Shown: positions 24,161 to 30,055 of the stretch, piece after piece
Position numbering within the stretch: the first letter of the stretch is position 1
Layout: each line of letters begins with the position of its first letter
Assembly: GCF_015351025.1 (NCBI RefSeq)
Contig: NZ_JADKRV010000007.1
Coordinates: forward strand, 1-64,000
Direction: 5' to 3'
DNA length: 64,000 bases
Origin: Curtobacterium sp. VKM Ac-1376
GTDB lineage: Bacteria > Actinomycetota > Actinomycetes > Actinomycetales > Microbacteriaceae
Program-made: the position numbers and the translations under genes
The notes under the pieces: model-generated
Told to the model about the DNA's origin: nothing
Databases searched by the model: none
What the model saw: the letters and a program-made list of their open reading frames with translations, nothing else

Positions 24161-25006
24161 ATGATGGTGGGCATGAGCGAGTTCGCGAACGTGCTGCGTT
24201 CCTGGCGCGACCGGGTGCGTCCGGAGGAGGTCGGCCTGCCGGCCGGTCCCGGCAGACGGACACCCGGGCTCCGGCGCGAGGAGCTCGCCGCCCTCGCGGG
24301 CTTGAGTGTCGACTACGTGGTCCGCCTCGAGCAGGGCCGCGCGACGAACCCGTCGCCGCAGTTGCTCGCGTCGCTCGCCACGGCGCTCCGTCTCACGGCC
24401 GAGGAGCGGGACCACCTGTGCCGCGTGGCCGGCGTGGCACCGCCGTCGCGGCAGGTCGTGCCGCGGCACATCACGCCGGGCGTCCAGCGCCTGGTCGACC
24501 GGCTCGGCGACGTCCCGCTCGCGGTGTTCACGGCGACCCACGACATCGTGCTCTGGAACGACCTGTGGGCAGCGGTGAACGGCGACCCCTCGCGGTACGT
24601 CGGGCTCGAGCGGAACCTGGTGTGGCGGCACTTCATGCAGGAGCACAACGGCGTGGACTGGGACGACGAGCACCAGGAGGAGTTCTCCAGCGACCTCGCG
24701 GCCGACCTGCGGCAGGCGTACGGCCGCTACCCGGCCGACCGCGACCTCGCCGAGCTCGTCGCACGCCTGCAGCGGGAGTCCCCCGAGTTCGCACGCCGTT
24801 GGGACACCGGTCGGGTGGCCGAGCACCGGGCGAGCCGGAAGCTCGTGCACACGCCGGTCGGCCCGATCGACATCGACTGCGACGTGCTGAGCGTGCCCGG
24901 CGGCGACCTGCGGATCGTCGTCTACACGGTGGTGCCGGGGTCCGAGGCCGCCGCGAAGCTCGAGCTGCTCCGGGTCACCGGCCTGCAGGAACTCACGGTC
25001 CGCTGA
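24161..25006 (+). CDS. XRE-family regulator with MmyB-like ligand-binding domain
   Basis: A 281-residue protein. An N-terminal Cro/C1-type helix-turn-helix (about 35-85, LRREELAALAGLSVDYVVRL) is followed by an MmyB-like PAS-type domain (about 105-275) with ATHDIVLWNDLWAAV and the final SVPGGDLRIVVYTVVPGSEA. Family members bind a fatty acid-like ligand. ATG 24161 has GGGAGG nine bases upstream; ATG 24173 (MSEFANVL) is the alternative by family alignment. It is divergent from the SDR gene it probably controls. Confidence 0.85.
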   Translation: MMVGMSEFANVLRSWRDRVRPEEVGLPAGPGRRTPGLRREELAALAGLSVDYVVRLEQGRATNPSPQLLASLATALRLTAEERDHLCRVAGVAPPSRQVVPRHITPGVQRLVDRLGDVPLAVFTATHDIVLWNDLWAAVNGDPSRYVGLERNLVWRHFMQEHNGVDWDDEHQEEFSSDLAADLRQAYGRYPADRDLAELVARLQRESPEFARRWDTGRVAEHRASRKLVHTPVGPIDIDCDVLSVPGGDLRIVVYTVVPGSEAAAKLELLRVTGLQELTVR

Positions 25007-25033: not shown

Positions 25034-25768
25034 TCATTCGCCGAAGCCCGCCCGCACCAGTTCCACGAGGGCGTCGACCGCGGCCCGTGCGTCCTGCCCG
25101 GTCGCCTCGATCGACACCGTCGCACCCTTGGGCAGCGCCAGCGCCATGATCGCGAGCAGGCTCTTGGCGTCCACGCCGTTCACGCGCACGGCGGCGTCGT
25201 ACTTCGCCGCCGTCTTCACGAACTCCGCGGCAGGCCGGGCGTGCAGCCCGGTCTCGTTCACCAGCTCGACCGACGCGCTGAGGCGGTCGGACCCGGCCAC
25301 GTCGTCGACGGCGCCTGCCCAGTCGGCCGGCCCCGTGCCTCCAGGTTGGTCACCGGGCGGACGGGAGGCGGTGCTCGCGTCCGCCTCGGAACCCACGGCC
25401 GACGCCGCAGCGGCCAGAACCGCGTCGGCGCCACCGCCCGTCTGGGCGGCGACCGCCGCGGCCACCGTCCCCTCGACCAAGGGTGCCTGCGAGACGTGGA
25501 CGCGGCCGCGGAGGTCGTCGTCGAGGAAGTCGAGCGCGGTGTCGGTCGTCAGGTAGGCGGAACCGAGGTCGCAGAGGACCACGACTGCGTCCGTGTCGGC
25601 GAGCTCCTCGATCCCGGCGGTGATCGCTTCGAACGAGGTTCCGATGCCGCCGTCGTCGGTCCCGCCGGCGGCGACCAGCGGGACGTCCGCCGCCATCTGC
25701 CGGGCGAGCTCGACCGTGCCCGTCGCGATCGCCGCGCTGTGCGAGACGACCAGGATGCCGACGGTCAC
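25034..25768 (-). CDS. dhaM: Dihydroxyacetone kinase phosphotransferase subunit DhaM, EIIA-HPr fusion
   Basis: A 244-residue phosphoryl-transfer protein. The N-terminal EIIA-Man-like domain (1-125) has active His10 in VVSHS. A Pro/Gly linker (about 130-160) leads to an HPr domain (162-244) with active His176 in GLHARPA and a regulatory serine in DAKSLLAIM. E. coli DhaM has a third, enzyme I-like domain; this one lacks it, so phosphate must come from a separate PtsI. The GTG start overlaps the dhaL stop (GTGA). The linker-coding DNA contains a GGGCGGACGGGAGGC block matching the extragenic repeats. Confidence 0.9.
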   Translation of the reverse strand: MTVGILVVSHSAAIATGTVELARQMAADVPLVAAGGTDDGGIGTSFEAITAGIEELADTDAVVVLCDLGSAYLTTDTALDFLDDDLRGRVHVSQAPLVEGTVAAAVAAQTGGGADAVLAAAASAVGSEADASTASRPPGDQPGGTGPADWAGAVDDVAGSDRLSASVELVNETGLHARPAAEFVKTAAKYDAAVRVNGVDAKSLLAIMALALPKGATVSIEATGQDARAAVDALVELVRAGFGE

Positions 25769-26391
25769 GCTGCATCCACCGCGGCGCGCAGGATGTACGC
25801 CGTCGATTGGGCGCCGGGATCGCGGTGCCCGATCGCGCGGTCGCCGAGGTAGCTCGCGCGGCCCTTGTGGGCGACGAGCGGCTCGGTGTCGGCCGCTCCC
25901 TGTGCGGCGGCGTCGGCGGCCGCGGTGAGCACGGCCTTCGGGTCGTCGCCGGCACCGGCAGCCGCTGCTGCGGCGTCGACCGCGGGGCTCCACGCGTCGA
26001 CCATCGTCTTGTCGCCGACCGCGGCCTTGCCACGGGACACGACCCCGTCGCGGGCGGCGGTGAGGACGGCGACGAGGATGTCCGCATCGAGTTCGGCCGC
26101 GTCACCGGCGGCCTGTGCCGCCTTCAGGTAGGCGGTGCCGAAGAGCGGGCCGGCCGCACCTCCCACGGTCGAGATGAGCTTCGTCGCGACGGTCTTGAGC
26201 ACGGCACCCGGGGTGTCGAAGGACCCGGAGTCGACGGCCTCGAGCACGGCCCGGAACCCGCGGTCGAGGTTCTCTCCGTGGTCGCCGTCGCCGATCTCCC
26301 GGTCGAGCGTGACGAGCTCGGCCCGGTGCTCGTCGATCGTCGCGGTGGTGCGACGGACCCAGTCGATGGCCCATGCGGTGTCGAGCGCCAA
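25765..26391 (-). CDS. dhaL: Dihydroxyacetone kinase ADP-binding subunit DhaL
   Basis: A 208-residue all-helical subunit that holds ADP and passes phosphate from DhaM to dihydroxyacetone on DhaK. The metal-binding aspartates Asp30, Asp35 and Asp37 stand in TLDREIGDGDHG, exactly as in E. coli DhaL. The nucleotide loop has STVGGAAGPLFG, and the C-terminus carries DPGAQSTAYILRA. The start appears to be TTG 26391, seven bases after GGAAGGG; no ATG or GTG fits better. It is the middle gene of dhaKLM, 32 bases after dhaK. Confidence 0.93.
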   Translation of the reverse strand: MALDTAWAIDWVRRTTATIDEHRAELVTLDREIGDGDHGENLDRGFRAVLEAVDSGSFDTPGAVLKTVATKLISTVGGAAGPLFGTAYLKAAQAAGDAAELDADILVAVLTAARDGVVSRGKAAVGDKTMVDAWSPAVDAAAAAAGAGDDPKAVLTAAADAAAQGAADTEPLVAHKGRASYLGDRAIGHRDPGAQSTAYILRAAVDAA

Positions 26392-26423: not shown

Positions 26424-27425
26424 TCAGCGGCCCCAGCGCAGTGCCGGGGTCTCCACCGGCGCGTCCCAGAGGGCGGTGAGATCGTCGTCGAGCACCGTGA
26501 CGGTGAGCGAGAACCCCTGCATCTCGAGGGACGTGACGTAGTCGCCGACCAGGCTACGCGCGACCTCGTAGCCACGGTCGGAGAGGACCTCGGCGGCGCG
26601 TCGGTAGGCGATGTAGAGCTCGGACAGCGGCGTGCCCCCCATGCCGTTCACCAGGAGCAGCAGCGAGGAGCCGGCGGGGGCGTCGAGGTCCGTGAGGATC
26701 GGTTCGAGCACCCGGTCGACGAGCTCGTCGGCCGGGGCCATCGCGATGCGTTCGCGACCCGGTTCGCCGTGGATCCCGATGCCGAGCTCGACCTCGTCGT
26801 CGGCGAGGACGAAGGAGGGCTCCCCCGCGTGCGGCACCGTGCCCGAGGCGAGGGCGAGTCCCATCGACCGCGTGACGGCGTTGACGTGGCGGGCGACCGC
26901 GGCCACGGTGTCCAGGTCGTCGCCCCGCTCGGCGGCCGCCCCGGCGCACTTCTCGACCACGACGGTGCCGGCGACGCCGCGACGGCCGGCGGTGAAGAGC
27001 GAGTCCTGCACGGCGACGTCGTCGTCGACCACGACCGACTCGACGCGGACCTCGTCCATGGCGGCGAGTTCCGCGGCGGTCTCGAAGTTCAGGACGTCGC
27101 CGGTGTAGTTCTTCACGATGTGGAGCACGCCCGCGCCACCGTCGACAGCCTTCGTGGCGGCGAGGATCGGGTCGGGGGTCGGACTCGTGAACATCGGACC
27201 GGGGACCGCGGCGTCGAGCATGCCGTGGCCGACGAACCCGGCGTGCAGGGGCTCGTGGCCGCTGCCGCCACCGCTGACGATGCCGACCTTGCCGGCGACC
27301 GGAGCGTCGGCGCGGTGCAGGTGGATCGGGTCCTCGACCAGGACCACGTGTCCGGCGTGCGCGCGGGCGAATCCCCGGACGGTCTCGTCGACCACGGCCT
27401 GCGGGTCGTTGATGAGCTTCTTCAT
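26424..27425 (-). CDS. dhaK: Dihydroxyacetone kinase substrate-binding subunit DhaK
   Basis: A 333-residue subunit that binds dihydroxyacetone covalently as a hemiaminal. The substrate histidine is His219 (GIGIHGEPG). His57 in GGGSGH and Asp110 in NYTGD match the catalytic pair of E. coli DhaK. ATG 27425 follows GGAGG. It is the first gene of the minus-strand operon dhaK-dhaL-dhaM, divergent from glpF. A -10 candidate TAGATT lies at 27497-27502 on the minus strand, giving a leader of about 65 nt. Together with glpFK it lets the cell use glycerol through both phosphorylation routes. Confidence 0.95.
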   Translation of the reverse strand: MKKLINDPQAVVDETVRGFARAHAGHVVLVEDPIHLHRADAPVAGKVGIVSGGGSGHEPLHAGFVGHGMLDAAVPGPMFTSPTPDPILAATKAVDGGAGVLHIVKNYTGDVLNFETAAELAAMDEVRVESVVVDDDVAVQDSLFTAGRRGVAGTVVVEKCAGAAAERGDDLDTVAAVARHVNAVTRSMGLALASGTVPHAGEPSFVLADDEVELGIGIHGEPGRERIAMAPADELVDRVLEPILTDLDAPAGSSLLLLVNGMGGTPLSELYIAYRRAAEVLSDRGYEVARSLVGDYVTSLEMQGFSLTVTVLDDDLTALWDAPVETPALRWGR

Positions 27426-27533
27426 GCGGTGCCTCCACGGGTTCGGGGTCGAGCCGTGGGCGGTCACACCGCGCGTCGTCGACCGGAGTGCGCCCAATCT
27501 ACATCGACGGCGCGGCGGGTCGTCCGATGCCGA

Positions 27534-27547
27534 TGCACGTTCGTGCA
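27534..27547. promoter_or_regulatory. Operator-like palindrome, copy 1
   Basis: TGCACG-TT-CGTGCA. An identical 14-mer lies 65 bases away, about six helical turns. Probable binding site of a regulator of glycerol genes. Confidence 0.6.
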
Positions 27548-27598
27548 GCAGACCGGGGATGCGTCGCCGGCTCCCGATCGTGCTGGGGACAGTCGGCC

Positions 27599-27612
27599 TG
27601 CACGTTCGTGCA
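27599..27612. promoter_or_regulatory. Operator-like palindrome, copy 2
   Basis: TGCACG-TT-CGTGCA, identical to 27534-27547 and extended on the right by CGATC. It lies 52 bases upstream of the glpF -10 candidate. Confidence 0.6.
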
Positions 27613-27743
27613 CGATCCCGCACTTCGCTCCCGAATTCATCGCCCGGCCGTGAGCGGCGTCACTATGCTCGGCGTCAATCACTCAACGGGGAGTGCCGGC
27701 GCAGCACCACCGGACCCCCACCCTCACGCACTGGAGGTCACCG

Positions 27744-28469
27744 ATGGACGGCATCGGCGTCAATTTCCTGTCCGAGCTCGTCGGCACGGCGATGCTCATC
27801 ATCCTGGGTGGCGGCGTCGTCGCCGCTGTCTCGCTGGCGAAGTCGAAGGGCTTCGGAGCCGGGTTCCTCATGGTCACGATCGGCTGGGGCTTCGCGGTCT
27901 TCGCCGGCGTCACCGTGTCGTACAAGTCCGGTGGACAGCTCAACCCCGCGGTCAGCCTCGCGCAGGCCATGCTCGGCAACATCACCGTCGGCGAGATGTT
28001 CCTCTACTGGCTCGCCCAGCTGATCGGCGCGATCATCGGTGCGGTCATCGTCTGGCTCGCCTACAAGCAGCACTTCGACGAGGAGCCCGACGCGGCCGCC
28101 AAGCTCGGCGTGTTCTCCACCGGCCCCGCGATCCGATCGTACGGCTGGAACCTCGTCACCGAGATCATCGGCACCTTCGTCCTGGTCTTCGTCGTGATCG
28201 CCTTCACCAACGGCCAGACGCCGTCGGAGCTCGGCGCGATCCCCGTGGCCTTCCTCGTGATCGCGATCGGTGTCAGCCTCGGTGGCCCGACCGGCTACGC
28301 CATCAACCCCGCCCGTGACCTCGGTCCGCGCATCGCGCACGCCCTGCTGCCCATCAAGGGCAAGGGCTCGAGCGACTGGGCCTACGCCTGGGTGCCGGTC
28401 GTCGGACCGCTGATCGGTGGCGCCATCGCCGCCGGTCTGTCCTACGCCCTGCTGCCCGTCGTCAGCTGA
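27744..28469 (+). CDS. glpF: Glycerol uptake facilitator
   Basis: A 241-residue major intrinsic protein with six membrane segments. The two half-helix signatures are LNPAVS (Asn67-Pro-Ala) and INPARDLGPR (Asn188-Pro-Ala-Arg191-Asp192). The Asp after the second NPAR is typical of glycerol facilitators rather than water channels. Start ATG 27744 is seven bases after GGAGG. glpK follows 74 bases later in the same direction; uptake and phosphorylation are coupled this way in many bacteria. Confidence 0.95.
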   Translation: MDGIGVNFLSELVGTAMLIILGGGVVAAVSLAKSKGFGAGFLMVTIGWGFAVFAGVTVSYKSGGQLNPAVSLAQAMLGNITVGEMFLYWLAQLIGAIIGAVIVWLAYKQHFDEEPDAAAKLGVFSTGPAIRSYGWNLVTEIIGTFVLVFVVIAFTNGQTPSELGAIPVAFLVIAIGVSLGGPTGYAINPARDLGPRIAHALLPIKGKGSSDWAYAWVPVVGPLIGGAIAAGLSYALLPVVS

Positions 28470-28543: not shown

Positions 28544-30055
28544 ATGGCCGACTACATCGTCGCCATCGACCAGGGCACGACCTCCACCCGAGCGATCGTG
28601 TTCGACCACTCCGGTTCGATCATCTCGACCGGGCAGAAGGAACACGAGCAGATCTTCCCGCGCGCCGGGTGGGTCGAGCACGACCCCGCCGAGATCTGGG
28701 ACAACACCCGCGAGGTGATCGGTCAGGCACTGTCGCGTGCCGACATCACGCGCCACGACGTCGCAGCGGTCGGCATCACCAACCAGCGCGAGACCGCGGT
28801 GGTCTGGGACAAGACGACCGGCAAGCCGATCTACAACGCCATCGTGTGGCAGGACACCCGCACGCAGGCGATCGTCGACAAGCTCGCCGGCGGGGACACA
28901 GACAAGTACAAGGCCATCGTCGGTCTCCCGCTCGCGACCTACTTCGCCGGCACCAAGATCATGTGGATCCTCGAGAACGTCGAGGGCGCTCGTGAGAAGG
29001 CCGAAGCGGGCGACCTGCTCTTCGGCACCACCGACACCTGGGTCCTCTGGAACCTGACCGGTGGCGTCGACGGCGGCGTGCACAAGACCGACGTCACGAA
29101 CGCGTCCCGCACGCTGTTCATGGACCTCGAGACGCTGCAGTGGCGCGACGACATCCTCGCCGACTTCGGTGTCCCGAAGTCGATGCTCCCCGAGATCGTC
29201 AGCTCGTCCGAGGTCTACGGCCACGTCGAGTCCTCCAGCCTGCTCCGCGAGGTCCCGATCGCGGGCATCCTCGGCGACCAGCAGGCCGCGACCTTCGGCC
29301 AGGCCGCGTTCGACCAGGGCGAGTCGAAGAACACCTACGGCACCGGCAACTTCCTGATCTTCAACACCGGTACCGAGATCGTGCGCTCCGAGAACGGGCT
29401 GCTCACCACCGTCGGCTACAAGCTCGGCGACCAGGAGACGCACTACGCCCTCGAGGGCTCGATCGCCGTCACGGGCTCGCTCATCCAGTGGCTCCGCGAC
29501 AACCTCGGCCTGATCGGCAGCGCCCCGGAGGTCGAGGCCCTGGCCAAGACGGTCGAGGACAACGGTGGCGTGTACTTCGTGCCGGCGTTCTCGGGCCTCT
29601 TCGCACCGTACTGGCGTCCCGATGCCCGCGGTGCGATCGTCGGCCTGACCCGCTACGTGAACAAGGGCCACATCGCGCGTGCGGCCCTCGAAGCGACGGC
29701 GCTGCAGACCCGCGAGGTCCTCGACGCGGTGAACGCCGACTCCGGCGTGGACCTCACCGAGCTCAAGGTCGACGGCGGCATGACCGCGAACAGCGAGCTC
29801 ATGCAGTTCCAGGCCGACATCCTCAACGTGCCGGTGGTCCGTCCGGTCGTCGCCGAGACGACGGCCCTCGGTGCGGCCTACGCCGCCGGTCTCGCGGTCG
29901 GCTTCTGGGCCAACCTCGACGAGCTCCGTGCCAACTGGCAGGAGGACAAGCGCTGGGAGCCCCAGCTCGACGCTGCCGAGCGCGAGCGCACGCTCCGTCT
30001 GTGGAAGAAGGCCGTCACGAAGACCTTCGACTGGGTCGACGAGGACGTTCAGTAG
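28544..30055 (+). CDS. glpK: Glycerol kinase
   Basis: A 503-residue FGGY-family kinase that makes sn-glycerol 3-phosphate. The N-terminal [14 protein letters not shown] phosphate loop, the substrate residues in [11 protein letters not shown], the RETAVVWDK segment and the late ADGG-like [18 protein letters not shown] are all intact, and the length is normal. ATG 28544 follows AAGGAG at 6 bases. No PTS-phosphorylation histidine region of the Firmicute type is apparent. A long palindromic terminator shared with convergent trpD follows. Confidence 0.97.

Follow-up and report, generated by a model that had tools for sequence, protein, structure and literature searches.

A candidate SorC-family regulator and helically phased twin operators at the divergent glycerol promoters of Curtobacterium

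The GlpF-GlpK-GlpD and DhaKLM routes of glycerol metabolism both yield DHAP, and the genes involved are controlled by different kinds of regulator in different bacteria. In Escherichia coli the scattered glp operons are governed by a single regulator of the DeoR family, GlpR, acting through several operators. GylR, which is also the case described for Mycobacterium, belongs to the IclR family. The bridging of two operators by one protein is a separate and well-studied theme: the lac and gal repressors connect two operators located on one face of the helix, in a manner that depends on their phase. For the actinobacteria, a published account has GylR controlling the glycerol genes of Streptomyces (PMC9732521). 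The SorC family offers the closest structural parallel to the system described here. According to the structural report, both SorC proteins with a solved DNA complex bind as tetramers, with one dimer per half-operator, and the family member CggR is released by FBP and DHAP (PMC11229326). A literature search, with most subscription journals outside its reach, found no SorC-family glycerol regulator in actinobacteria.

The window, i.e. the whole 64,000-nucleotide stretch of Curtobacterium DNA that was analysed, carries the divergent dhaKLM and glpFK operons (Table 1). The gap of ~320 bp between dhaK and glpF houses two exact copies of TGCACGTTCGTGCA, a perfect inverted repeat with 6-bp arms and a TT centre, separated start to start by 65 bp or 6.19 turns at 10.5 bp per turn. 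This agrees with the earlier note on this DNA, which had reported two identical 14-mers some six turns apart. The same note placed the pair between the -10 elements of dhaK and glpF, and -10-like hexamers are indeed found on both sides and are partly conserved. However, a consensus scan returned no promoter at its thresholds anywhere in the dhaK/glpF region, these two hexamers included, and the promoters of both genes are consequently putative ones, assigned by eye. The identification of dhaM is strengthened by a score above the cut-off of NCBIfam TIGR02364; its exact start codon is putative. Immediately past operator 2, at 27609-27622, lies a weak operator-like extra copy, TGCACGATCCCGCA, beginning 10 bp after the start of that operator; 9 of 66 genus genomes have an extra site here, matching 10 or more of the 12 arm bases. 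A GTGA-N6-TCAC palindrome at 27650-27663, CRP/GlxR-like and beside the candidate glpF -10, was dropped as a conserved element, as it is found in the gap of only 9/66 genus genomes.

Table 1. Features of the dhaK/glpF control region and the flanking operons (window coordinates)
Feature	Position	Strand	Basis
Operator 1, TGCACGTTCGTGCA	27534..27547	+	Exact sequence; immediately upstream of inferred dhaK promoter
Operator 2, TGCACGTTCGTGCA	27599..27612	+	Exact sequence; upstream of inferred glpF promoter
Inter-operator spacer	27548..27598		Poorly conserved sequence; large length changes in the genus approximate whole helical turns
Candidate dhaK -10 (TAGATT)	27496..27501	-	Inferred from sequence and partial conservation
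Candidate glpF -10 (TATGCT)	27664..27669	+	Inferred; conserved patch
dhaK, dihydroxyacetone kinase subunit K	26424..27425	-	Pfam Dak1 PF02733, 2.4e-128
dhaL, dihydroxyacetone kinase subunit L	25765..26391	-	Pfam Dak2 PF02734, 1.1e-51
dhaM, EIIA-man and HPr domains (phosphoryl donor)	25034..25768	-	Pfam PF03610, PF00381
glpF, glycerol facilitator (MIP family)	27744..28469	+	Pfam PF00230, 8.7e-41
glpK, glycerol kinase (FGGY family)	28544..30055	+	Pfam PF00370, PF02782

The earlier note saw no regulator gene adjacent to the operons, which, taken literally, does not stand. An XRE-type regulator with an MmyB-like ligand domain is encoded at 24173-25006, just beyond dhaM and 27 bp from it, where it adjoins an apparent divergent short-chain dehydrogenase gene; in two relatives (L023, L033) an apparent TetR-type gene is found beyond dhaM instead. 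Nothing ties the XRE/MmyB-type gene to the operator sites.

A search of both strands of the whole 3.77-Mb genome recovered TGCACGTTCGTGCA exactly three times, compared with zero hits for the reversed-pattern control. The third copy is where the earlier note proposed to look: it is located upstream of glpD, between this gene and a divergent gene for a SorC-family regulator. The same gap contains a second site 75 bp from the exact copy, with perfect arms and a TC centre. Both of these sites thus adjoin the divergent SorC-family gene, and a candidate regulator can be named with good confidence. A copy with one mismatch was found upstream of cydA (L042:1501-1514; G000:C61:45926). A cydA match is present in 63/66 genus genomes, and in 30/30 genus loci examined a site matching 11 or more of the 12 arm bases starts 157-163 bp ahead of the gene; cytochrome bd oxidase hence appears to belong to the glycerol regulon. 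The remaining one-mismatch copies (C1:422721, C4:21639 and C6:63841) have no clear link to glycerol genes and were rejected as regulon sites, while two-mismatch copies in the same genome were treated as background.

The candidate regulator gene (L021:9023-9985, G000:C1) comprises 320 codons and is located on another contig than the window. Its product carries the SorC-family effector (sugar-binding) domain PF04198 at residues 63-317 of the 319 searched (1e-58, 199 bits against a cut-off of 27), preceded by an N-terminal helix-turn-helix region recognised by models at residues 16-62. The protein aligns with DeoR (8r7y) and SorC (2w48), N-terminal part included. Among solved structures the nearest is 3nze, represented by the effector domain of a putative sugar-binding regulator (E 1.8e-88), followed by B. 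subtilis DeoR (residues 9-318), SorC and LsrR in near full-length alignments. The scores are well under the NCBIfam cut-offs for both the B. subtilis DeoR equivalog (NF053881, 217 bits against 420) and the LsrR equivalog (NF011947, 93.8 bits against 486), and the protein is therefore assigned to the SorC family and filed neither as DeoR nor as LsrR. Neither an IclR model nor a DeoR-type sensor domain is among its six Pfam matches (E 0.001). The lysine of the DeoR motif QLKGG, which we take to be the covalent lysine of that protein, aligns with Asn in the regulator. Covalent binding of the DeoR effector is described in the structural report (PMC11229326). Within the genus the regulator is at least 88% identical in 65/66 genomes, the exception being G022, an assembly 73% complete. 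A second SorC-family gene (L021:2590-3480, PF04198) is located ~5.5 kb away from it in the same genome and has counterparts in most genus genomes, with matches of ~27-32% identity; in this genome no match to 9 or more of the 12 arm bases occurs in the stretch upstream of it.

The association between regulator and operator was followed through other genomes. A neighbourhood scan covered 61 loci at which the regulator has a relative, 45 of these at 88-99% identity. In two Amnibacterium genomes (L106, L121) a relative 64-71% identical is placed between glpKF and dhaKL, and the same arrangement, in the same identity range, is observed in a bin labelled Acidobacteria (L105) and in a Microbacteriaceae bin (L114). 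The operons surrounding the regulator in these four loci are those between which the window has its twin sites. This is one of three concordant lines tying the regulator to the operator, the others being the order-wide distribution of the 14-mer and the presence of the regulator in the genus. In L107, L108 and L111 the relative adjoins glpD, followed by glpF and glpK. Relatives 47% identical also occur in two Spirochaetaceae bins (L119, L120), in loci that gave no match to the glycerol genes tested.

On the scale of the order, the exact 14-mer is present in 85 of 396 genomes (own genome included), as compared to 2/396 for the reversed control. It marks 89 loci outside our own genome, and in 64 of these it precedes, by no more than 500 bp, a relative of glpD, the regulator, glpF, glpK or dhaK. 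The genes concerned are glpD together with the regulator (48 loci), glpF (5), glpD alone (3), glpK with the regulator (3), dhaK (2), glpK (2) and the regulator alone (1), leaving 25 loci with none of these. Gene names were assigned by tblastn with the Curtobacterium proteins, and orthology is assumed, since identity is 28-32% for many of the glpD matches and 41-57% for many of those to the regulator. Reading frames were inspected in 19 of the 25 loci without a glycerol gene nearby, and the recognisable ones were unrelated genes. Four order-wide loci (L277, L284, L285 and L338) are clipped by contig ends, so that a neighbour could be missing there. The sites, the regulon and the tie to the regulator gene are thereby legible in the genome sequences themselves.

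Within Curtobacterium the paired arrangement is almost invariant. The genus sample consisted of 66 genomes, our own and 65 others, and in 65 of them both sites of the dhaK/glpF gap retain 11 or more of the 12 arm bases; in the remaining genome, G077, both sites are degraded (10/12 and 9/12), with the spacing still at 65 bp. Likewise, 65/65 genus genomes have a pair in the glpD/regulator gap, each site matching 10 or more of the 12 arm bases. The operator arms are conserved amid variable surrounding sequence. Together with the site at glpD, these retained pairs lend support to the proposal of the earlier note that the operators of one regulator serve both directions. Outside the genus, a scan of 330 bp upstream of the regulator gene gave 51 regions with an exact site (L294, L329 and L333, which lack one there, are outside this count), and 44 of the 51 show no second site. 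Control as such therefore does not require pairing, and the doubled, spaced arrangement seems largely specific to Curtobacterium. Each of the other seven regions has an additional site matching 10 or more of the 12 arm bases, in four cases 31 bp, or about three turns, from the main one. These 31-bp pairs (L299, L300, L304 and L311) belong to another family of the order and are located at the regulator gene. In 50/51 of the upstream regions the TT centre reads away from the regulator, and L105 and L114 display several weaker sites.

The spacing within the pairs was compared between species. For the dhaK/glpF pair it is 65 bp in 56, 67 bp in three, 75 bp in three, 64 bp in one and 99 bp in one of the 64 genomes that are on the tree with both sites; G022 (65 bp, no regulator) and G077 (degraded sites) were left out. 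The glpD/regulator pair is spaced by 74-76 bp in 40, 84-86 bp in 19, 96 bp in three and 108 bp in three of 65 genomes. Reconstruction of the length changes by parsimony on a two-gene tree yielded few events, of which ten between the sites were of at least 4 bp: +32, +10, +10, +10, +23, -22, +21, -11, +11 and +8. Nine of these ten deviate by no more than 2 bp from multiples of 10.5, against 7/31 for changes in the flanks. The corresponding mean cosine was 0.80 at 10.5 bp (0.60 at 10.0 and 0.82 at 10.7), with p ~4e-5 for a uniform phase as determined by simulation. The 31 flank changes, measured from site to start codon with the start codon in place of the transcription start, gave a mean cosine of -0.37, and the 26 of at least 8 bp gave -0.27. 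This flank control rests on three flanks, because the glpF side has 0/21 changes of at least 4 bp, and the flanks show a recurrent 15-bp step. Removing the two deepest changes left 8/8 within 2 bp of whole turns, and across 20 bootstrap trees the mean cosine ranged from 0.76 to 0.86 between the sites versus -0.22 to -0.40 in the flanks. Departures from the phase are seen at 67 bp (6.38 turns, three genomes) and 99 bp (9.43 turns, one genome), in the most divergent species. Otherwise, same-face spacing is largely kept when the length changes, as expected of operator pairs that form DNA loops, and the same-face arrangement suggested earlier is borne out in so far as the spacing evolves in helical steps.

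In combination, these observations make it probable, in our judgement, that the twin 14-mers are operators of the SorC-family regulator encoded beside glpD, with one tetramer most likely looping each pair. The regulator would bind the twin dhaK/glpF sites, the two sites 75 bp apart at glpD and its own gene, and the single site upstream of cydA. The predicted regulon would thus unite glycerol uptake (glpF), both entry routes to DHAP (glpK-glpD and dhaKLM) and a quinol oxidase (cydA). One tetramer would grip the two operators of each pair on one face of the helix, with some six to ten turns of DNA in the loop, and would so control the two divergent promoters together. A tetramer on two palindromes would need them on one face, and this requirement would account for the phased spacing; looping by the regulator accordingly counts as likely at the level of sequence. 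A phosphorylated intermediate may then release or reshape the regulator. As the regulon converges on DHAP, either glycerol-3-phosphate or DHAP is our best guess for this effector. Binding, tetramer, loop and effector are what we infer from the comparisons. The dimeric looping repressor proposed in the earlier note survives in part: the phased pair fits bridging, but the SorC proteins with described DNA complexes are tetramers, and repression is only somewhat favoured. The fuller account, in which a Curtobacterium SorC tetramer loops two divergent glycerol promoters, a single ancestral operator has been doubled in this genus, and glycerol use is coupled to cytochrome bd oxidase, is one on which we are evenly divided.

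Repression is somewhat favoured as the sign of control, given the habit of the family and an operator inside the putative promoter of the regulator gene. More precisely, the regulator-side operator is located between the by-eye -35 and -10 hexamers of that gene, which suggests self-repression. The other operators are at ~-50 (glpD, dhaK) and ~-70 (glpF) from start sites placed by eye, and not over the core promoters. Since the glpD operator lies ~6 bp upstream of a conserved hexamer taken by eye as its -35 (TTGCCC), and the dhaK operator is similarly positioned, activation also fits. The regulator could then be an activator or a dual regulator that aids polymerase at glpD and dhaK with glycerol phosphates and represses its own gene, the loop being optional. 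No good -35 is found for glpF, in keeping with such a role. Conversely, the structural report presents the SorC proteins in its DNA complexes as repressors (PMC11229326), the glpF site is rather distant at ~-70, and the promoters concerned are by-eye assignments. We regard activation or dual control as a genuine possibility, albeit a doubtful one.

It is rather unlikely that the same SorC-family regulator acts from each operator independently, on its own promoter and with no DNA loop. Such independence would be in line with the 44/51 upstream regions in other genera that lack a second site, with the position of each operator near its own putative promoter, and with the one strong site at cydA. 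Independent sites would need no phasing, yet 9/10 large between-site changes, as against 7/31 flank changes, are within 2 bp of whole turns, and the pattern persists on the 20 bootstrap trees. The ~10-bp steps might instead reflect a mutation bias, namely slippage of ~10-bp repeats rather than selection on phase. Repeats of this length do exist in the region, as evidenced by the weak copy 10 bp after site 2 in 9/66 genomes, and the flanks have their own recurrent 15-bp step. The steps of +21, +23, -22 and +32 are, however, also near whole turns, while the flank changes of the same regions are not, and slippage is accordingly judged quite improbable. Least credible, and very improbable indeed, is binding of the sites by another protein, be it an unknown one or the SorC-family paralogue encoded ~5.5 kb from the regulator gene. 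The paralogue has PF04198 and matches of ~27-32% identity in most genus genomes, but has no such operator, down to 9 of 12 arm bases, in the stretch upstream of its own gene in this genome, and the 14-mer lies beside a relative of the first regulator in 52/89 loci of other genera.

On the preferred reading of a tetramer looping each operator pair, glycerol use in an order of actinobacteria gains a candidate regulator together with its operator and regulon, the regulator being of a known family and the regulon new. The two separate operator pairs, with their near-whole-turn spacing changes between species, constitute a natural record of helical phasing, and the natural promoters make DNA looping by a SorC protein directly testable. 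If the reading is correct, the loop would extend across 6 to 10 turns, unlike the adjacent half-operators known for the SorC family, and the near-whole-turn spacer changes across 66 genomes would amount to a natural phase experiment.

The nearest described relatives, B. subtilis DeoR and CggR, are of the same family as the regulator, and one tetramer binds two half-operators (PMC11229326). In that account the halves are adjacent within an operator of 39-45 bp, whereas here two full palindromes are 64-108 bp apart; the target genes differ as well, and probably also the effector. The weaker site at 31 bp in L299, L300, L304 and L311 recalls the adjacent half-operators of CggR and DeoR. GylR, the glycerol regulator of other actinobacteria, belongs to another protein family, and no IclR domain is among the Pfam matches of the regulator described here. 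The likeness to E. coli GlpR consists of one regulator presiding over scattered glp operons, while the effector domain and the operator of GlpR are different. The lac and gal repressors, finally, are of yet another family, and the phasing of the Curtobacterium operators is read from natural variation between species.
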